A stretch of 53,131 bases of DNA. Origin: an uncultured Pirellula sp. Its GTDB lineage: Bacteria; Planctomycetota; Planctomycetia; Pirellulales; Pirellulaceae. The stretch covers positions 1-53,131 of the forward strand of contig CAITIE010000004.1 in the NCBI GenBank assembly GCA_903892355.1. The letters run 5' to 3'. The notes beneath the pieces were generated by a model, which was not told the DNA's origin, ran no database searches, and saw only the letters and a list, made by a program, of their open reading frames with translations. Below are positions 36,000 to 52,660 of the stretch, in pieces. Within the stretch, counting starts at the first letter, position 1. Each line of letters starts with the position of its first letter. A program made the position numbers and the translations under genes.

Positions 36000-38900
36000 T
36001 TATTTCGTATCGGGGATTTCAATGGGCAGCATGCCCCAAAAAACCCCATGAGGATCCCCACGCTCGCTCAATGTTTCATCCATCACCGCAATGGTGCGAG
36101 GGACACTCGTTTTCACAATTTCGCGATCCCCAATGCGGACGGTGACGGGGGCGTTCATGTCCAGGAGATCGTCCTTGAGGAGAATATTGAGCTGTGTCAG
36201 TTCGGCCTGCTCGATCACGACTTCATTTCCAACCGCTTTGGCGATAACAAGTGGACGATCGCGAAGAAAAACCGGGTCCGTGCTCAACCAGTAGAAGCGA
36301 GGTTCGACGACGTCATCCTGTTTCCATACGATTTTCTTGGGAAATCGGTTGCGTGTATTCTGGTGCATCCATTGGATCGCCTCAGCGTCTTGACGGTCCA
36401 TCCAGTGCCCTTTCCCTTCGTGGATTTTTACATAGTGGTTGTATCCGTCCGGATCGGATTCATGCAGTTCTGCGAGCTTCGTTTTCCATTCGGCGGCAAT
36501 CTTGTTTCGATTGTATGCACCGTCATTAGCACCCATGTGGATCGTGAACGGTAGATTTCTCAGGCCCAATGGTGACGTTTCATTGGGGTGACCTGCCATC
36601 ATCGATGCGGCGGCGAAACGGTCAGCCATCCTCGGAGCGACTTGATAGACACCATCGCCACCGGCTGAGTAACCCATCAGATAGACTCGGTCCGGATTGA
36701 CGTTTTCAAAGAGAACGAAGTCTTGGATCAAACGGTCGAAGAAGGCGTCGATATGGGACTGGTGCCAAAGATCCCACGTGTCCGTAGGCGCGCGCGGTGC
36801 GACATAGACACCTTCTTCCGGTCGGTAGAGCCGTTTCTGGTTTTCCCACTGAGAGTCGTTGACTTTTTTGGGAGCACCACCACCTCCGTGCATCGAAATG
36901 TAGAGGCTGCGACCACCTTCGGGCATATCCCCGTAGACTTTGTAGGCAAACGGCATTTTGAGTTCACCGATCACGAGTTGCCTCGATTCGAATTCGTCGA
37001 TTCTGGACTGGCGTTGACGCCTTTGAAAGTCCTCGACCAATAACCGTTCCGCAGCGATCGCTTGTTCCTTGCTCAGCGGGAGTGTCGCGAACGCGTGTTG
37101 ATCGATGGCACCGCGCGAGCCCGGATCCATGGCCAAGTATTTCTCGAGGCCTTGGATGGCGGCATTGCTGTCACCCCCTTCTGGCATCGGATTTGGTTTC
37201 GGCTTGGGTTGCGGTTGTTCGCTCGGTACGTTCCAGGAGATCAATCGCGGTTGATCGCCGACTTGGAATCCATCCGACCAGCGGCGTTCTCCGACTTGCA
37301 CCTCAACCGTGTAGCTAGAGCCTTGCTTGAGGTACTGAAGCAAATGATCGTTCGAGTCGAACCCTTCGTCTTTTGTGGTTCCTTCGAGCACCACCGCGCC
37401 GGATTCATCCTTCACGCAGACTTTGGCCTGTGTCCTTGCCAGTGTTTTGGGGTCCACTACGCGGAAGGAAACCATCTGAGTACCTTCGGGTTGTTTGAAC
37501 CCGACTTGGGTGTAACGGTCGGTTACGTTGACCGCGCTGATGTAGTCGATGGATCGATCCCAGACAAGCGGAAATCGGAGCGGCGTCTTTTGGAAGCTGA
37601 CCGCGTAAATCGCATGCCTTGGATCATCCCGCTTGGCCGTCGAAGCCCTGCCGATGAACCAGGCTTGGTCGAGCTGATCACCGCTCGGTTCTGCCGCTCC
37701 GGTAAAATGCCATCCGTTGTCCCACACTTCAATCCACGAGTGGTTGCCACTGTTGTCCGACCATAAAGGGGTACCGACAAATCGGGCTGGAATACCCAGA
37801 GCTCGGCAAGCATCGATCAGCAGCACCGATAATCCAGTGCAAGAAGCCAACCCAGAATCCATCGATTCGTACGGACTCTGGTCGGCCTTGGCCCGTTTGG
37901 TCGAGTATTTCACCTTCACCATGGGATAAAGCTTTTGATTGAGCATCGCTGCCGCTTGGGCAGGCGTCGTCGCCCCGATGATCAACGGATAAAAACGATC
38001 TCGAAAATCCTTTCGCCATGCATCTCTGCGTTCGTTAATGTTCGCGTACGGAAGAATGTTGTTCAGAAAGATCTCCTTGGGGATTTGCTTTCCCCACGGG
38101 GCTTCTTCAAGCGTCTCGTGAGCGATTTGGATTTCGGAAAACAGGAAATCGGATTTGAGCGATTTCAAGTCGCGGAGGGGCATATTCGCGACCAGAAACT
38201 CAGCGGATTCGAATTGCGAGTCGGGAACAAGTCGAAGGAGTTGCTCAAGCTCTGTGCGGTTGTCTCCGGCGGCATCGAGCGCGTTCAATACGTCACTGCT
38301 CCATGTTCGAACTGCGAGTCGCGAGTCTTCAGCGACAGTTGCTACCAACCACGTGGTGCTACCCGCGGTGGATTCGCTCTGAGGTGATTCGCTCTGGGGT
38401 GATTCGTTCTGAGGCTGAGCAATCGACGCGAGATAGCCCGAGTTTGTCTTTAGGATCGCTGGTGACTTCAGCCCGTTTGCAATATTGGGGGTCCACTTTA
38501 GAGCCTCGAACGAATCTGCGAATTGCGCCTGAGCTCCTCGGTGAACCAATTGACGGTGATAGACTTCCATCAATTGATCGCGAAGCGTCAAGCGAGCGTC
38601 GGAAACGAAGGCCTCGGAGTCCGTGGAGTTCCTGAACAGGACGAAACCCCATCGCTCAGGACGGTGCATGTCGATGATCCCTTGCGGCGACCATACCCAG
38701 TTATCCTCAGGCCGTCCCGGCTTCTTTTGGTACTTGCCATCGACAATGTCGAACTCCCATTCCACGCGAGAAAACCCGAAACGCCAGTAATCACCATCCT
38801 TGGGTGGGGCAGATGCGTGCGTGAGCGACGTGAAAGAGGCCCATGGAATTGCAATCTCCACCGTCCATCCTTCATCGGTGTCCGAAGGGTCATTGAGGGT

Positions 38901-39500
38901 CCCTTGAAGGTGCACTGCTGTCTTTAGCCCGGCGATCTCAAAGCTATTGTCCGCCTTGCCCCCATCCTTGTAGGGGCGATCCAGGAACAGATCCCAAGTG
39001 GTGTTGAGAGTGTTCAATTCCAGTTCGGCGTATCGGTGATTATCTCCATCCGGATCAATAAAGACCTCGAAGTCATTATCCTGAAAAATAACCGCATCGT
39101 GTTCTCGGATGCTGCCTTGCAAGTGAGGTTCGAGAAGTTGGGCGGCGATGTACAGGGTTTCGTCATCCCAAAGAAGTTTCGCTCGCGTGGGATGCTTCGG
39201 TGCTGGGAGCGAAGGGCCTTGGATATCGATGAACTCGTCGGTCCAAACCGCATGCGCCCATTCCGTAGGATCCAATTTGCCATCGACCTGAATGGGTGCT
39301 TTGGTCCTCAGCGCGACGACGCCTCGAGGCATTATCGGACGCATGCGCCCCCAATCCCCAGCCGCAGCGTCCCCATCGGACACTTCGTTCGTTGATGTAT
39401 CACCGGCTAACCCTGTGGTTGCATCGAGGAATCCAGCGAACGCGAACAAACAGGAACTAAGGACCGAGGAACAGAGAACATGACTCCATCGAACGGACAT
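36000..39500 (-). CDS. Secreted multidomain protein: CBM9-like, transglutaminase-like and esterase domains
   Basis: A 1166-residue exported protein with three recognisable parts. After the signal peptide comes a CBM9-like/DOMON-type domain (about 70-270) starting APIQVDGKLDPTEWAHAVW. The middle has a transglutaminase-like domain with Cys near 553 (ASCTGLS) and His in GNHSWIEVW. The C-terminal part is an alpha/beta hydrolase of the PHB-depolymerase/esterase type with Ser near 945 (GYSAGGDG), Asp near 993 (GANDGAYN) and His near 1032 (GKGHWMD). This combination suggests a surface or secreted enzyme that binds and processes a complex polymer. A 15-bp array adds SESPQ units between the first and second domains. 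The start at 39500 gives the signal peptide; the extension to 39698 does not. Confidence 0.82.
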   Translation of the reverse strand: MSVRWSHVLCSSVLSSCLFAFAGFLDATTGLAGDTSTNEVSDGDAAAGDWGRMRPIMPRGVVALRTKAPIQVDGKLDPTEWAHAVWTDEFIDIQGPSLPAPKHPTRAKLLWDDETLYIAAQLLEPHLQGSIREHDAVIFQDNDFEVFIDPDGDNHRYAELELNTLNTTWDLFLDRPYKDGGKADNSFEIAGLKTAVHLQGTLNDPSDTDEGWTVEIAIPWASFTSLTHASAPPKDGDYWRFGFSRVEWEFDIVDGKYQKKPGRPEDNWVWSPQGIIDMHRPERWGFVLFRNSTDSEAFVSDARLTLRDQLMEVYHRQLVHRGAQAQFADSFEALKWTPNIANGLKSPAILKTNSGYLASIAQPQNESPQSESPQSESTAGSTTWLVATVAEDSRLAVRTWSSDVLNALDAAGDNRTELEQLLRLVPDSQFESAEFLVANMPLRDLKSLKSDFLFSEIQIAHETLEEAPWGKQIPKEIFLNNILPYANINERRDAWRKDFRDRFYPLIIGATTPAQAAAMLNQKLYPMVKVKYSTKRAKADQSPYESMDSGLASCTGLSVLLIDACRALGIPARFVGTPLWSDNSGNHSWIEVWDNGWHFTGAAEPSGDQLDQAWFIGRASTAKRDDPRHAIYAVSFQKTPLRFPLVWDRSIDYISAVNVTDRYTQVGFKQPEGTQMVSFRVVDPKTLARTQAKVCVKDESGAVVLEGTTKDEGFDSNDHLLQYLKQGSSYTVEVQVGERRWSDGFQVGDQPRLISWNVPSEQPQPKPKPNPMPEGGDSNAAIQGLEKYLAMDPGSRGAIDQHAFATLPLSKEQAIAAERLLVEDFQRRQRQSRIDEFESRQLVIGELKMPFAYKVYGDMPEGGRSLYISMHGGGGAPKKVNDSQWENQKRLYRPEEGVYVAPRAPTDTWDLWHQSHIDAFFDRLIQDFVLFENVNPDRVYLMGYSAGGDGVYQVAPRMADRFAAASMMAGHPNETSPLGLRNLPFTIHMGANDGAYNRNKIAAEWKTKLAELHESDPDGYNHYVKIHEGKGHWMDRQDAEAIQWMHQNTRNRFPKKIVWKQDDVVEPRFYWLSTDPVFLRDRPLVIAKAVGNEVVIEQAELTQLNILLKDDLLDMNAPVTVRIGDREIVKTSVPRTIAVMDETLSERGDPHGVFWGMLPIEIPDTK
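38371..38415. repeat. 15-bp in-frame tandem repeat, 3 copies
   Basis: GATTCGCTCTGAGGT at 38371-38385 with variants at 38386-38400 and 38401-38415. On the minus strand they encode ESPQ(S/N) units in the linker of the large multidomain protein. Confidence 0.9.
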
Positions 39501-39825
39501 GCGTTGATTCTTTCTGGTAAACGGCGAGGTAACAACGAGATAACAATCAAAACAATTCGCAAATTGCCATTTCGGGTTCGTTACATAGGATAACCCAGTC
39601 AATTTCCAAACGGGATCCCTGAATCCGAACCGGCTCCGGTAAAAGGTTCGGAAAACGAGAGGTTCGCGTGGCTGTACCCGGCATGTCTGGGTCGTCATCT
39701 TTGGGAGAACACGGAAAAGACTCGGCTATGGATCCAAGCAGCTTGTTCGACAAGCTCGCTGTGAATTGTTCCGAGCGATACTTTTCCCAGATCGGATTTC
39801 TCAACACGGAATTTCTTAATACAGA
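39501..39825. other. Intergenic region between cutC and the multidomain gene
   Basis: No gene supported. The short minus-strand frames here have no motifs. No clear promoter or terminator was found. Confidence 0.45.
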
Positions 39826-41025: not shown

Positions 41026-41553
41026 ATGCGTTTTCATCGTTTTCTTACCGTTGCATTTGCGTTTGCCACTGTTTTCACTTGCAACACCGTTTTTGGCCAA
41101 GCCACCGGGACCCAAACCCTCAAGGTTATTGTTCCAACCAGTGTCAGCATCTCGGCACCATCTGCTGCAACGATCACTCACAACGAAACGAACTCAGCAC
41201 AAGCTTTCCCCGCTCAGCAATGGGTGGTTAAAGGGAATGCCAAGTCAGGCGTGAATGTGTCTTTCTCAACGGGCTCAGCATTCGTCAACAAGGACGATGC
41301 TACCCAGAAGCGAGATGCCAAGCTGACTCTTGCCATCGGTGATACCGCGGGCCCAGGTACCTGGACGCTTGGAAATCCGTCCGACACCACCGACTATTCA
41401 AAGAATGACGAAGTCGCACAGGTCACCGCTTCGTCCAACGGGGTCGGCCGTGCCAACCTGAACTTGACTGTTGAGTTCCAAACGGTTGAGTATGGTTTGT
41501 TCGCAGCAGGCGAATACTCCACGGTCATCACCGGCACCGTCGCAGCGAACTAA
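41026..41553 (+). CDS. Small exported beta-sandwich protein (pilin/WxL-like), unknown family
   Basis: A 175-residue protein with a clear signal peptide (FLTVAFAFATVFTCNTVFGQ, cut before ATG). The mature part is all-beta in character, Thr/Ser/Val-rich and lacks Cys. It opens with LKVIVPTSVSISAPSAATIT and closes with AAGEYSTVITGTVAAN. This resembles the fold plan of DUF4402, Csu-type spore coat U pilins and WxL domains, including one TWTL. I infer, but cannot prove, a surface subunit. AAGGG lies upstream of the ATG. A strong terminator follows, then a lipoprotein secretin and an Ig-like protein in the same direction, suggesting they export and assemble it. Confidence 0.75.
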   Translation: MRFHRFLTVAFAFATVFTCNTVFGQATGTQTLKVIVPTSVSISAPSAATITHNETNSAQAFPAQQWVVKGNAKSGVNVSFSTGSAFVNKDDATQKRDAKLTLAIGDTAGPGTWTLGNPSDTTDYSKNDEVAQVTASSNGVGRANLNLTVEFQTVEYGLFAAGEYSTVITGTVAAN

Positions 41554-41820
41554 ATCAAGCGGTGGAATATACGCTACAGTAACTGTCAATCGTACCGAAG
41601 AATCAAAACCGCGGCGACGCTCAGCGTCGTCCGCGGTTTTTGCTTTAATGCTAGCGTTTCCCTCGTAGGATTTAGGGATTTCTTCTTTGAAAGATACTTC
41701 AACGTCTATTGCATTTAGGCTCACACAGTGAGTAAAAGCCTCTGCCGGGAAACGCCTTCCCAAAACGTGAAGTGCATCTTTTAGTTTCGGGAGTTTGGAT
41801 TCATCACTCGATTTTCATCG
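41554..41820 (+). other. Terminator-bearing gap between subunit and secretin genes
   Basis: Besides the terminator at 41605-41642 I see no element here. The secretin gene must be expressed by read-through or from its own promoter in 41643-41820, where no clear -35/-10 pair is visible. Confidence 0.5.
41605..41642 (+). terminator. Intrinsic terminator after the beta-sandwich gene
   Basis: Long stem AAACCGCGG(C)GACGC/GCGTC(GT)CCGCGGTTT with a short loop and a T-run. Its position between the small exported protein and the secretin would favour high expression of the first gene over the rest. Confidence 0.85.
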
Positions 41821-43752
41821 TTGAGTTTTTCGCGGATCTTCTGTCTATTGCTGATTGCAGCCGTAAACTCCTCGGGCTGTCTTGGCAAAAACAAGATGGT
41901 CAAGCGAACGGTACAGGACCTGTACCAGGAAGCTCTCCAGTCGGCGGCGGAGAGACCAGAGTTCGTGCGCCCTGCGGTCCCGGAATATGGCGTCGAACAG
42001 TTCGATGCCGCTGGTAATAGAGTCCCCTCCCTTTCCTGCGATGGGATTCCAATTGAGATGCTGGAGCCATCGCTTCCGCTTGAATCGAACGTTCTCGTAG
42101 GTAGTTCCATTTCCTCGTCGGTGAAAACGGAATCTGGAGTTCCTCGGGTTCCACCTGCCACCAAGAAGGAACTCGTAAAGAACGAACTCACGCGAAAAGA
42201 CAGCAGTGGTTTCAAAGATAGCAGTGGTTTCAAAGATAGGGATGCACTCGAAGCCACCGACGAAGAACCTCTTCCGTTGCTCGAACGCGATAAGCAGGAA
42301 TTGGATTCCGAGGACGAAAACCTCATCGAGGATCAGGATCCCCCGGTGGTGTCGACGGTGTCGACTCGCAAGCATCGGCAGCTTCTTTCCAAAGCAACTG
42401 CAGGTGCGCGAAAAGCATCCTCAAAGCTCGATCAGCAAAACTCGAAGGCCACGTCCCGTAGCAACCCTAAGAAACCTGAGGTCGTTCACGCTTCGTTCCG
42501 GGATACGGGACGTATTGTCGTCGTTTCCGCCCCTGGTGAGTTGCAAGATCCCCTGTCAGACTCCGACACGATGGACGACATGGGGATTACAGAGTCCTTC
42601 GATCAAACCGACATTCGCGAGGCGCTCAATATCATCGCGGCCCAAGGAAAAAAGTCAGTGGTTATCGACGACACGATCGGTGGCGTCGTCAGCGCTGAGA
42701 TTATCAACATGGAGTTCGAGTCAGCCCTTAAGTCGTTGCTGCAACCGCTCGCACTCTATTACGCCAAAGACGGGGATAGGTACATCATTGCCCCAGCAGA
42801 CCCCGATTCTCCACTGTATCCCTACATCGCCAAACGCAGCCTGTACGCGCCAAAGTTTCAGGACACAGCGAGCTTAACGACCATGCTCCCGACGCGCTAC
42901 AAGAAGTATTACCAGATCTCGCCGGAGCGAAACCTGATCATGGTGGACGCTCCGAATCGAATCGCTGAGGAAATCGAAGAGCGATTGCTGGAACTGGATA
43001 AACCAATTCCACAGGTAGAGCTAGAAGCCATCGTATGCGTTGTTGCTCCGGACAGTTCCTTCCGATTCGGCCTGGATTGGGGCCATCGTGTTGGGGGGGC
43101 AGAATCCGAGGATCTCAATGTCTCGATGAACAATCTGGGCCTAAAGTCCGCTGTAAGCGCGGATGGTGCACGAAATATGTTCTCTGATTTCGCAGTCACT
43201 TCGGCTTTCGTTCGACTCTTGGCTCAAGAGGGCTACATCACGATACGGGCTCAACCCCGTGTAACGGCCAAAGATGGCGAAAAAGCACATATTTCGATCA
43301 ATCGTGAAACGTTTTTTAGCTTACAGCCGAACAACAGCAGCGTCTTCTTTCAGCAGAGCATCCAAAAAGTCGAAGCAGGGATTTCGCTTGAAATCACCCC
43401 TCGGGTCCATGACGACATGGTTAGCGTCAAAATCGGTAAAGCGGAGGTTAGCGAATATCTTCGTACACAAACGGGTAATGCGGATGTGAGCGGGATGGTT
43501 AATCCAATCATCGATCGTCGCAGTGTTTCCACTGAAGTTATGGTTCGAGACGGCCATACAATCGTTATCGGCGGATTAGTCCAACGTCAAACTGTGGATC
43601 GAATCGCCCAAGTGCCATTCTTTAGCAGCATACCGATCGCGGGCAAGCTATTTGAGAGCATCGAGAAGCAAGAGCAGGATGCGGAAGTGGCTATTTTTAT
43701 CTGCCCTAGAATTGTACCGGTTGGTTCCCTATGTCCAGAATCTACTCCTTAG
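41821..43752 (+). CDS. Lipoprotein secretin (GspD/PilQ superfamily)
   Basis: A 643-residue outer-membrane channel protein. The signal ends in the lipobox NSSGC with Cys20, so the protein is a lipoprotein as in BfpB/PilN-type secretins. A charged, low-complexity region (about 40-250) includes a duplicated DSSGFK. An STN/N0-like domain (about 258-325) spans DIREALNIIAAQGKKSVVID. N-domain-like sequence runs to about 400 (ISPERNLIMVDAPNRIAEEI). The secretin pore domain (about 405-640) has the family signature VMVRDGHTIVIGGLV and the lip IPIAGKLFE. The start is TTG without a clear ribosome site. No ATPase, pseudopilin or platform gene is adjacent, so it is a stand-alone secretin. Confidence 0.87.
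   Translation: MSFSRIFCLLLIAAVNSSGCLGKNKMVKRTVQDLYQEALQSAAERPEFVRPAVPEYGVEQFDAAGNRVPSLSCDGIPIEMLEPSLPLESNVLVGSSISSSVKTESGVPRVPPATKKELVKNELTRKDSSGFKDSSGFKDRDALEATDEEPLPLLERDKQELDSEDENLIEDQDPPVVSTVSTRKHRQLLSKATAGARKASSKLDQQNSKATSRSNPKKPEVVHASFRDTGRIVVVSAPGELQDPLSDSDTMDDMGITESFDQTDIREALNIIAAQGKKSVVIDDTIGGVVSAEIINMEFESALKSLLQPLALYYAKDGDRYIIAPADPDSPLYPYIAKRSLYAPKFQDTASLTTMLPTRYKKYYQISPERNLIMVDAPNRIAEEIEERLLELDKPIPQVELEAIVCVVAPDSSFRFGLDWGHRVGGAESEDLNVSMNNLGLKSAVSADGARNMFSDFAVTSAFVRLLAQEGYITIRAQPRVTAKDGEKAHISINRETFFSLQPNNSSVFFQQSIQKVEAGISLEITPRVHDDMVSVKIGKAEVSEYLRTQTGNADVSGMVNPIIDRRSVSTEVMVRDGHTIVIGGLVQRQTVDRIAQVPFFSSIPIAGKLFESIEKQEQDAEVAIFICPRIVPVGSLCPESTP
42199..42234. repeat. 18-bp in-frame tandem repeat, 2 copies
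   Basis: GACAGCAGTGGTTTCAAA and GATAGCAGTGGTTTCAAA at 42199-42216 and 42217-42234, encoding DSSGFK twice in the charged N-terminal region of the secretin. Confidence 0.9.
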
Positions 43753-45398
43753 TTTTCACCGCTAGCATGGTCCTGTTCGTGGCATGCGCTGCTGCTCCAC
43801 AAACAGCGTTGGCTCAGAAAGCCGGACGCGGCAATCAAATCGTGGTTCGCGAGTCGTTTGAACCCACGTTTCGAATCGAGCCCCTCGTAAACCGACTCAA
43901 TGGCCGAGGCAACGAAGAACTTCCGTTCAAGTTCAATATCGAGTCCGCCAATCGCGATACCACGGTCGAAATTGTTCCGATCGGACTTGCTCAAGACATC
44001 TCGGGGCAGGTTCTGCACAACACCGATCTGAAAACCTCGGACACGATTCGGATCCTTACCCCGCAAACATTAAAGCTCGAAGCGAACAAATCGGCGTACA
44101 TCGAAGGGCTCGTCAAGATTCCTCGTGGAGAAGCCAAGCACCATTCCTATGGAATCATGGTCCGCGATATCGGAAGCGATAACAACCTTGCACCGTCATT
44201 TGACCCCAGCGGAAAACGAAAGACCCAAGCGGGCGTCCGTTTCATGACCCAATATGTTCTACGTCTCGACGTCGAAGTCGACGGCAACCGGGGTGAACAA
44301 GTCCAACAGTTGTTGATCGAGGAAGCTTCGATCCTACCGCGCAACGGTCGACCACTCCTTCAAGCAATCGTTACTAATCCTACGGACACCACGTTTGAAT
44401 TTGAGCTCCGAGCTCGGCTCCGCTCCTCGCCGAGCGATCGGACCGCCAAACAAGTCAGCTTGGTCATGCCTATTCGCGCTGCCAACGAAGACGACTCTCG
44501 CAAGATCGGACGTATTCTCGGTAAGTCGAGGATTCGGATGGAAGAGCTTTTGCCCGAAGCCATAGCCGGCGGGCAATACGAAGTGGATCTCGAAGTCTGG
44601 AGCGACCAACGGGCCGTCAAGAAGAAAACCATCTCTATTGACGTCGATGCGGAGGATTTCCCTGCTCAGGAAGTGGTCATCGCACAAGTCGGTCCCGGGC
44701 TGCAAGTTTCCCCCGCACAAATTGAACTTTCCCAGCTCCGCGGTGGCAGTCGCCGTGTGTCGCTCCTCCTAAAAAACCACGGCAAAGAGGAGAAGACCAT
44801 ACAACTCAAAGCGATTGGCGCAGATGAACTTCCATTGGGAAGTGTTACCTTCCAACCCTCGACCGTAAAGCTCGCTCCCGGTGCCTCGCGAAAAATCGCG
44901 ATGACCTTGATCGGCGGGCACAGCGACCATGCATTCGCCTACGGGCATGTGCTTATCGAGTCTCAGTCGGATCGGAAGGAGTTTCGAGATACGAGACGGT
45001 TGCCGCTGGCGATCCTCTACAAGAAAGGTGGCGAGACCAACATCAATGTGTCTCCGCTCGCATGGGATCCCAACGGTAAATACCCAGCATTCCGAACCAC
45101 GTTGGAAAATACAGGTACGCTTCACTTCCCTGTCGATGCTCGGCTGACGATCAGCTCCGAGCTGGGCCGTCGCTATCAAGTCCTCGGGGGATTCGGTCAG
45201 TGGGTGATGCCTGGGCAAAAAGCACAAATCGCCTTCCGGCTCGATTTTCCACTCCCACCGGATAACTACAAACTCAAGTGCGAGTTCATCACCGGTGGCG
45301 ATCCCGCGGTCGTCGAACAAGAGTTCGTCGTGTCGGACCTCACCGACGCCGCGGACAAGAAACCGGTCTCAACCGATAGCGCGAGGAAAGTAAACTAG
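43731..45398 (+). CDS. Exported multi-Ig-like protein, chaperone/WxL-interacting type
   Basis: A 555-residue protein with a signal peptide (VLFVACAAAPQTALA, cut before QKA). The N-terminal domain (about 40-150) has the layout of pilus-chaperone or DUF916-like domains: FRIEPLVN at the start and LKLEANKSAYIEGLVKIPRG later. At least two more Ig-like beta domains follow, one opening LQVSPAQIELSQLRGGSRRV and closing VTFQPSTVKLAPGASRKIAM. No family can be named. Its ATG overlaps the secretin gene by 22 bp, implying translational coupling and joint function. Together with the small beta-sandwich protein it suggests a chaperone-and-pore assembly route for a surface structure. Confidence 0.75.
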   Translation: MSRIYSLVFTASMVLFVACAAAPQTALAQKAGRGNQIVVRESFEPTFRIEPLVNRLNGRGNEELPFKFNIESANRDTTVEIVPIGLAQDISGQVLHNTDLKTSDTIRILTPQTLKLEANKSAYIEGLVKIPRGEAKHHSYGIMVRDIGSDNNLAPSFDPSGKRKTQAGVRFMTQYVLRLDVEVDGNRGEQVQQLLIEEASILPRNGRPLLQAIVTNPTDTTFEFELRARLRSSPSDRTAKQVSLVMPIRAANEDDSRKIGRILGKSRIRMEELLPEAIAGGQYEVDLEVWSDQRAVKKKTISIDVDAEDFPAQEVVIAQVGPGLQVSPAQIELSQLRGGSRRVSLLLKNHGKEEKTIQLKAIGADELPLGSVTFQPSTVKLAPGASRKIAMTLIGGHSDHAFAYGHVLIESQSDRKEFRDTRRLPLAILYKKGGETNINVSPLAWDPNGKYPAFRTTLENTGTLHFPVDARLTISSELGRRYQVLGGFGQWVMPGQKAQIAFRLDFPLPPDNYKLKCEFITGGDPAVVEQEFVVSDLTDAADKKPVSTDSARKVN

Positions 45399-45601: not shown

Positions 45602-46522
45602 TCACTGGGGGCAGAGCGATCGCGAACCGCGGTATGCTTGAATTCGCTTGCGCACCAACACCACCAATCCCAAGCCTGCAAAGATGATCCCGGTACCAGG
45701 CAATGGTACTTGAGGCGGATCCGGGATAGGCTGGAGTGTTACGGAGTACGTCGATGCACCCGGTGATGTTGGCCGGAACAGAAAAAATTGACCAGCCTGC
45801 CACGGCATCTTGTCGCCGTCGATTTCTCGAAAATACATCGAACCATCACTTCGTTTCGGATCGGCGAGCACGGAACCGTCGCTGGCAGAATCCAATCCGA
45901 TCAAACTTAGCATGTCACCGAAATCGGTAGTGCCAGCCGTGTTGGCAATGTAGCTGAACGCAATGTCATCACGATGGAATTGAAATCCATTAAGCACCGT
46001 GTCTCCCTCGAACCAGAGCATCTGAACCGTCCGGTCGGTTATCGGCCAGTTTCCGACTGCTTCTACGTACAAAACCACATTTTGCCACGTAACGCCTATG
46101 TAGCTACCTGGACTGTCGTGGAAAAGGATCCTATTCGTCGGTAGCCCTCCCCCGGCCAAGACGCTATCTGGAAAGTACACGTAGTCATCCCACAAAGGCG
46201 CGATGCGATAAGAACCGCTCGTCGTATTGTAGGAAAGGTCTCCTGTGAAATTGACGTTACCTAGGCTTGTGGCATACAGGTCCCCACCTAAGTCTCCGAC
46301 CGACTTTCCAAATAACCGACCGTTGAAATTGGTTCGTAGATTTACGTTAGCTGACCATGGTAGGTTGTAGTCGATTTCGTCCGAAGGACCGTCGAACAAA
46401 ACCTGGGAGTTGCCGCTCGTCGGACTCAAAATAACCGCAGCATACACGCCGCTAGAACGCAGCATCCCGACGAGAATCGTTGAAAGCGTCAACGCGAAAA
46501 TCAGAACCATGCGTCCGTGCAT
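45602..46522 (-). CDS. Exported protein with PEP-CTERM-like C-terminal anchor
   Basis: A 306-residue protein with a signal peptide (IFALTLSTILVGMLRSSGVYA) and a C-terminal sorting signal: short motif VPLPGTG, hydrophobic helix IIFAGLGLVVLV and basic RKR. This matches PEP-CTERM architecture with PLP in place of PEP. In PEP-CTERM systems the tail is processed by exosortase, which acts with exopolysaccharide export. The middle is a beta-rich, Trp/Tyr-rich domain with no family I can name (WDDYVYFPDS, WQNVVLYVEAVGNW). The start at 46522 has AGGAGG at good spacing; GTG at 46528 is too close to it. No exosortase gene is in the window. Confidence 0.75.
   Translation of the reverse strand: MHGRMVLIFALTLSTILVGMLRSSGVYAAVILSPTSGNSQVLFDGPSDEIDYNLPWSANVNLRTNFNGRLFGKSVGDLGGDLYATSLGNVNFTGDLSYNTTSGSYRIAPLWDDYVYFPDSVLAGGGLPTNRILFHDSPGSYIGVTWQNVVLYVEAVGNWPITDRTVQMLWFEGDTVLNGFQFHRDDIAFSYIANTAGTTDFGDMLSLIGLDSASDGSVLADPKRSDGSMYFREIDGDKMPWQAGQFFLFRPTSPGASTYSVTLQPIPDPPQVPLPGTGIIFAGLGLVVLVRKRIQAYRGSRSLCPQ

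Positions 46523-51326: not shown

Positions 51327-52660
<1,334 letters not shown>

Follow-up and report, generated by a model that had tools for sequence, protein, structure and literature searches.

An uncultured Pirellula sp. of the phylum Planctomycetota carries three neighbouring genes, here called SMALL, SECR and BIG, that form a conserved gene unit in some aquatic Planctomycetota. We analyzed them in a window of 53,131 nucleotides, the whole stretch of DNA taken from contig CAITIE010000004.1, in which the three open reading frames (ORFs) were confirmed, all on the + strand (Table 1). In our best reading, to which we give a probability of about 0.55, SMALL would form a donor-strand fibre that is capped by BIG and extruded through SECR instead of through an usher. 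An earlier interpretation of the same DNA, made from its letters (the original prediction), had described three exported genes in one direction with a 22 bp overlap between the last two, which the coordinates of the SECR and BIG ORFs bear out. It had also proposed a route for a surface fibre or coat and named two results that would speak against it; we grade that proposal as supported, since the three families do co-occur in other genomes and beta-sandwich and Ig folds are predicted. To this our analysis adds the PapD-like half of BIG, second copies of SMALL in relatives that lack an N-terminal arm, and a nidogen-like PEP-CTERM partner.

Conservation of the gene unit

Scanning 84,980 species genomes with three BIG peptide patterns returned 24 loci, which together with the window and a locus of genome G036 (L029) make 26. 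They include Rhodopirellula sallentina, R. rubra, Rubripirellula obstinata, Neorhodopirellula pilleata and strain CA13, the last three of which carry SMALL, SECR and BIG together. SECR adjoins BIG at 25 of the 26 loci, the exception (L061) starting inside BIG. SMALL is present at 21 loci; the contigs of L061 and L065 start too late to include it, at L060 it lies on another contig (L098), and at L059 and L068 it was not found in the DNA examined. It precedes SECR at 17 of these 21 loci and follows BIG at four (L053, L054, L056 and L057). Flanking genes, compared by eye, vary across lineages and are common to the window, L048 and L049, to L051 and L052, to L053 and L054, and to L056 and L057. 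Given the co-occurrence and the repeated linkage of BIG to SECR, we reject chance adjacency.

The distribution of the families points the same way. Apart from the BIG pattern scan, our genome-wide searches covered relatives within Planctomycetota. Of 60 genomes (59 relatives in addition to that of the window), nine have BIG and ten have SMALL, namely those nine and G016. In G016 SMALL is on a contig of 5,925 bases that stops 265 bases past the match, so that BIG may simply be unassembled there. The hypergeometric probability of this overlap is 7e-10 across the 60 genomes under an assumption of independence that does not hold for them, and 4e-5 within the genus when the window's two near-identical kin are collapsed. 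In a phylum sample of 392 genomes, including the window's own, three had BIG (that of G420 being a weak match) and two of the three also had SMALL; at most three candidates (BIG, SECR) or nine (SMALL) were scored per genome in the phylum samples, and weak relatives may be missed.

BIG is predicted to be a double chaperone

A protein search identified 85 BIG relatives among 7,998 candidates scored. The predicted structure of BIG is all-beta and made of Ig-like domains, except for the signal helix and short turns, and two modules are predicted within it: an N-terminal one with the DUF916-DUF3324 (WxLIP) fold, and a second with the two-domain fold of the chaperones PapD, FimC and CsuC. The original prediction had noted Ig-like domains reminiscent of DUF916 or of pilus chaperones; the models show Ig domains of both the WxLIP and the PapD type, which confirms the DUF916 resemblance at the level of predicted structure, and this resemblance is echoed by a distant relative (L104, see below) that exceeds the Pfam cut-off for WxLIP_PGBD. 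At the level of sequence, BIG shows no Pfam or NCBIfam family above cut-off, and neither PF06030 nor PF11797 matches the window's copy with E up to 10. PF11797 is matched weakly by 55 of 74 BIG members, at best with a score of 28.8 against a cut-off of 28.9, on the last domain. A PDB sequence search returned nothing useful for BIG and no match for its distant relatives.

Within module 1, residues 167-178 include A167, F171, T173, Q174, Y175, L177 and R178, all invariant or nearly so, and follow a loop of lower model confidence (blocks 151-170); this conserved stretch presumably lies near the strand-donating site of WxLIP and PapD. BIG ends in a hydrophilic tail, modeled as a low-confidence coil (538-555), and has no C-terminal membrane helix.

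SMALL carries a conserved N-terminal arm that some second copies lack

The small all-beta protein of the original prediction is modeled by AlphaFold as a beta sandwich (pLDDT 90.3), and its C-terminal end, AAGEYSTVITGTVAAN, extends three residues past the end quoted there. The nearest Foldseek matches are CfaB, CS17, the FimF/FimG pilins and CanA, all at E 1.1e-3 and weaker, with the TasA fibre protein also among the matches, while no WxL-type structure stands among the 50 best matches listed. The protein search recognized 80 relatives out of 208 candidates scored. No Pfam or NCBIfam family lies above cut-off for SMALL, its PDB sequence search gave no useful match, and in 68 SMALL members the Pfam search (E up to 1) returned no WxL match, only scattered chance-like ones. 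On these results we rejected the assignment of SMALL to a known family.

By eye, the mature protein has a conserved alternating stretch, Q.F.V.VP, a few residues in from its start (signal peptides and the starts of mature proteins are themselves by-eye calls), and Q30, V34, V36 and P37 are invariant in the alignment. We propose this arm as a donor strand. The arm motif, defined after the sequences had been inspected, is present in 24 of 31 SMALL ORFs, and the seven that lack it are all second genes between an armed SMALL and SECR (L058, L063, L064, L066, L067, L069 and L071). Two SMALL genes precede SECR at eight loci, the second being armless at seven of them and armed at L070. In chaperone-usher pili, tip subunits are without a donor arm; a SMALL that could accept a strand and donate none is what one would expect of a fibre-tip subunit, and by this analogy the armless second copy may start or tip the fibre.

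Other ORFs near SMALL genes deserve mention. Genome G423 has a solitary SMALL gene whose start is arm-like (L096 8585-9220, G423:C107), on a different contig from its cassette. Before the cassettes of L063 (3034-3606), L064 (3900-4508) and L067 (3987-4409) there is a divergent, exported-looking ORF on the opposite strand with an arm-like stretch, a possible further subunit. A response-regulator-like ORF, called by eye, lies upstream of the armed SMALL in cassettes of the Rhodopirellula group (L066 3871-4701, L069 3620-4405, L070 3637-4467), which hints at regulation.

SECR is a lipoprotein secretin that scores below the PilQ and GspD models' cut-offs

The lipoprotein secretin of the original prediction was recovered: SECR has a Pfam Secretin domain, sub-threshold matches to N0/STN and a conserved lipobox cysteine, Cys20, after which a motif of the type R.SV..LY.EAL recurs in the 21 aligned sequences. 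It scores below the cut-offs of both the PilQ subfamily model (150.6 against 284.35) and the GspD equivalog model (125.5 against 351.35). The window's own genome encodes five further secretins, and 14 other genomes searched gave 3 to 12 secretin matches apiece, so that SECR need not serve the type IV pilus (T4P) or type II secretion system (T2SS) of these bacteria. As for the machine genes that the original prediction had found lacking, the absence of an ATPase holds for the whole contig, where none of the genome's 12 matches to T2SSE is located; pseudopilin and platform genes are absent from the ten neighbour proteins scanned with Pfam (E up to 1e-5), which contain no secretion part, the remaining window not having been scanned for them.

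A nidogen-like protein accompanies the unit in the window's genus

Convergent to BIG lies a gene for a secreted protein of the nidogen-like (NIDO) family, which has a PEP-CTERM-like tail. We place its start at an ATG preceded by GGAGGGG, where the ORF list extends to an upstream GTG (46528). Two of four members scanned exceed the NIDO cut-off, and the window's copy shows a sub-threshold PEP-CTERM match only. Homologues occur at ten of the 26 cassettes in the DNA examined, and also beside the displaced SMALL of G002, whose BIG is on another contig; in G016 and G022 this fourth partner and SMALL are on separate contigs. In a profile search of the 60 genomes (E up to 1e-8), nine had the family, with one copy each. 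Within the genus these are exactly the nine SMALL-positive genomes of 27 and none of the other 18, an agreement with a chance probability of 2e-7, or 7e-6 with close kin collapsed. The same search did not find it in G036, a SMALL-positive genome of another genus, and the DNA examined from Rubripirellula obstinata, Neorhodopirellula pilleata and strain CA13 shows no copy either. The protein is likely a surface partner or adhesin in the window's genus.

A distant version exists in other planctomycetes

A SECR profile matched eight of the 392 phylum genomes at E up to 1e-60, and two of these matches are the cassettes. In G139, G157 and G069, the latter two from one genus, two or three small exported proteins and then a chaperone-like ORF come before the related secretin; by eye, the first small protein has an arm-like start (for example TCSITATV or TVTITATV) and the last has none. 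The contig of G420 (L104) opens with a chaperone and then a secretin, which leaves any upstream subunits out of view, and the chaperone passes the Pfam cut-off for WxLIP_PGBD (PF06030; 31.4 against 27.3). G208 has a small exported protein after its secretin and no chaperone was identified at that locus, and the secretin of G098 reaches the contig edge.

Taken together, the four distant chaperones show homology to BIG by hhalign (98% probability, E 1.5e-13). The L102 chaperone matches BIG by BLASTP (E 6e-7), and the BIG profile finds three of the four (L102, L103 and L104) and misses that of G139. Homology between SMALL and the distant small proteins was not established (9.5%), and the six of the latter that were scanned had no Pfam match. 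These loci therefore repeat the layout of the cassette, perhaps with a different subunit family. A TPR protein follows the secretin at L102 (1-2373) and L103 (8416-9522), and L102 also has a secreted protein with an SdrD_B-like domain; they are a possible pilotin and a possible surface partner.

Proposed mechanism and alternatives

We infer the following route for SMALL, BIG and SECR. Sec would secrete SMALL as a beta sandwich that is incomplete, its first mature residues (Q.F.V.VP) forming a free arm. In the periplasm BIG would lend a beta strand to cap SMALL, in the way that PapD caps pilins and that is predicted for WxLIP with WxL domains. For WxLIP, a loop is predicted to run alongside WxL as a parallel strand (PMC10599100). 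SECR, a lipid-anchored multimeric channel in the outer membrane, would receive BIG-bound subunits on its N0 ring, where the arm of one SMALL would displace the strand of BIG from the following subunit, and the fibre would leave through the pore as it grows. The energy would come from folding and strand exchange, so that no ATPase would be required at the locus. At many related loci the armless second subunit may begin or tip the fibre, and in the window's genus the nidogen-like protein probably acts at the surface.

In this scheme SECR would stand where other pili have an usher. A search for ushers (PF00577) came back empty in all 16 genomes examined that have the cassette, part of it or a distant version, 12 of them at least 90% complete, whereas the E. 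coli control was positive, and we rejected a classical chaperone-usher system for this reason. More serious, and unlikely in our judgement, is that SECR is an extra outlet for a T2SS or T4P machine encoded elsewhere, with SMALL as a secreted substrate, BIG as a solubility helper and no fibre. SECR does resemble PilQ and GspD, including in its sub-threshold N0/STN matches, the own genome does have T2SSE matches, and G420 has two T2SSE ATPases, a T2SSF and a T2SSG 4-10 kb beyond its chaperone and secretin genes, so that the secretin there could be part of a type II or type IV machine. This arrangement and the weakness of the pilin-like match of SMALL both weigh against an extruded fibre. On the other side, the window's contig has no T2SSE match, the ten neighbours scanned include no secretion part, the genomes searched hold further secretins (G420 itself has two others), the cassette is kept as a unit across different neighbourhoods, and armless copies would suit fibre subunits better than soluble substrates.

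We find it improbable that the genes build a surface coat or anchor like that of the Gram-positive WxL cluster, in which BIG on the surface would hold SMALL to the envelope and the secretin would merely be the exit. Module 1 shares the WxLIP fold by predicted structure, but Pfam finds no WxL domain in SMALL, BIG has an extra PapD-like half and no membrane helix at its C terminus, a secretin is present, and the N-terminal arm and armless copies would be left without a role. Planctomycetota, unlike the Gram-positive hosts of WxL clusters, are a phylum with an outer membrane. Least probable is that the three genes are neighbours by inheritance only, with no joint action. The families are lineage-restricted, some loci have common flanking genes, and a mirror-tree test on 21 loci gave Spearman coefficients of 0.70-0.78, an agreement on which we put little weight because shared ancestry, that is, a common species history, can explain it. 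However, the match in presence and absence survives collapsing the closest relatives and holds in the phylum sample, the unit persists while its flanks differ between lineages, and the layout is repeated in a distant lineage.

Gene layout and neighbourhood

Table 1. Features of the locus, with positions in the window.
Feature	Position	Strand	Residues or length	Description	Basis
SMALL	41026..41553	+	175 aa	Exported beta-sandwich protein, proposed fibre subunit	ORF
N-terminal arm of SMALL	41113..41136	+	30-37	QTLKVIVP, proposed donor strand	Alignment and motif count
Hairpin	41605..41640	+		Terminator-like, running into a T run, between SMALL and SECR	Folding energy
SECR	41821..43752	+	643 aa	Lipoprotein secretin, TTG start, proposed outer-membrane channel	ORF
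Lipobox of SECR	41878..41880	+	Cys20	Lipobox cysteine	Conserved at 90% or more in 21 aligned sequences
N0/STN-like domain of SECR	42598..42798	+	260-326	Periplasmic domain	Sub-threshold Pfam matches
Secretin domain of SECR	43219..43716	+	467-632	Secretin	PF00263, E 3e-38
BIG	43731..45398	+	555 aa	Exported multi-Ig protein, proposed periplasmic double chaperone	ORF
BIG module 1	43860..44651	+	44-307	WxLIP-like (DUF916-DUF3324 fold)	Predicted structure
BIG module 2	44697..45314	+	323-528	PapD-like two-domain chaperone fold	Predicted structure
Nidogen-like protein	45602..46522	-		NIDO family, PEP-CTERM-like tail, convergent to BIG	Homologues at cassettes

The strong terminator that had been noted after the first gene corresponds to a real hairpin (-30.3 kcal/mol, z -3.95) with a T run after it and, as the original prediction read it, may serve a subunit required in excess. 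A general terminator scan of the region was not beyond chance (6 found, 5.7 expected), and a promoter scan found 1 against 2.7 expected. Nine of the ten neighbour proteins scanned belong to Pfam families, among them CutC, GAPDH, alpha/beta hydrolase and lactonase. Further away, the minus strand encodes a 1232-aa protein with CBM9 and transglutaminase-like domains (36000-39698) and a phage-integrase-family gene of the SAM_5 type whose 3' end is overlapped by a tRNA-Arg gene (51327-52660), an overlap that suggests an integrated mobile element at the right end of the window.

Discussion

The cassette is known by its parts, and its arrangement is new as far as we can tell. With chaperone-usher systems (type 1 and P pili, CFA/I, archaic Csu pili) it shares the predicted PapD-like fold of BIG module 2 and perhaps, in SMALL, a weakly pilin-like fold with an N-terminal arm, and the armless subunits in relatives resemble tip subunits; it differs in the missing usher, the secretin beside the chaperone and the WxLIP-like half of BIG. 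GspD and PilQ share the Secretin domain with SECR, whose partners, unlike theirs, are chaperone-like and subunit-like, with no ATPase on the contig. TasA/TapA fibres and CanA cannulae are linked to SMALL by weak structural matches, whereas those systems are not known to have a secretin partner. We see about even odds that these genes represent a separate chaperone-secretin pathway, with a double WxLIP/PapD chaperone, extrusion through a secretin and no dedicated ATPase, distinct from chaperone-usher pili, type II/IV pili, curli and sortase pili, and present in at least two divergent planctomycete lineages, possibly with separate subunit families. In the open-licence text covered by our literature search we found no precedent for a chaperone-secretin system.

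The cargo known for secretins comprises pseudopili, type IV pili, type III needles, filamentous phage and folded proteins. The presence of the cassette in named strains makes the chaperone-secretin idea directly testable. Planctomycetes have been described with fibres, holdfasts and crateriform structures (PMC7716919). If our reading is true, a secretin acting with a pilus-type chaperone and pilin-like subunits would be a new route by which surface fibres are built. An unrelated pore would then be able to stand in for the usher, and the system would form a bridge between the WxLIP and PapD chaperones, linking the WxL surface biology of Gram-positives with the pilus assembly of Gram-negatives.
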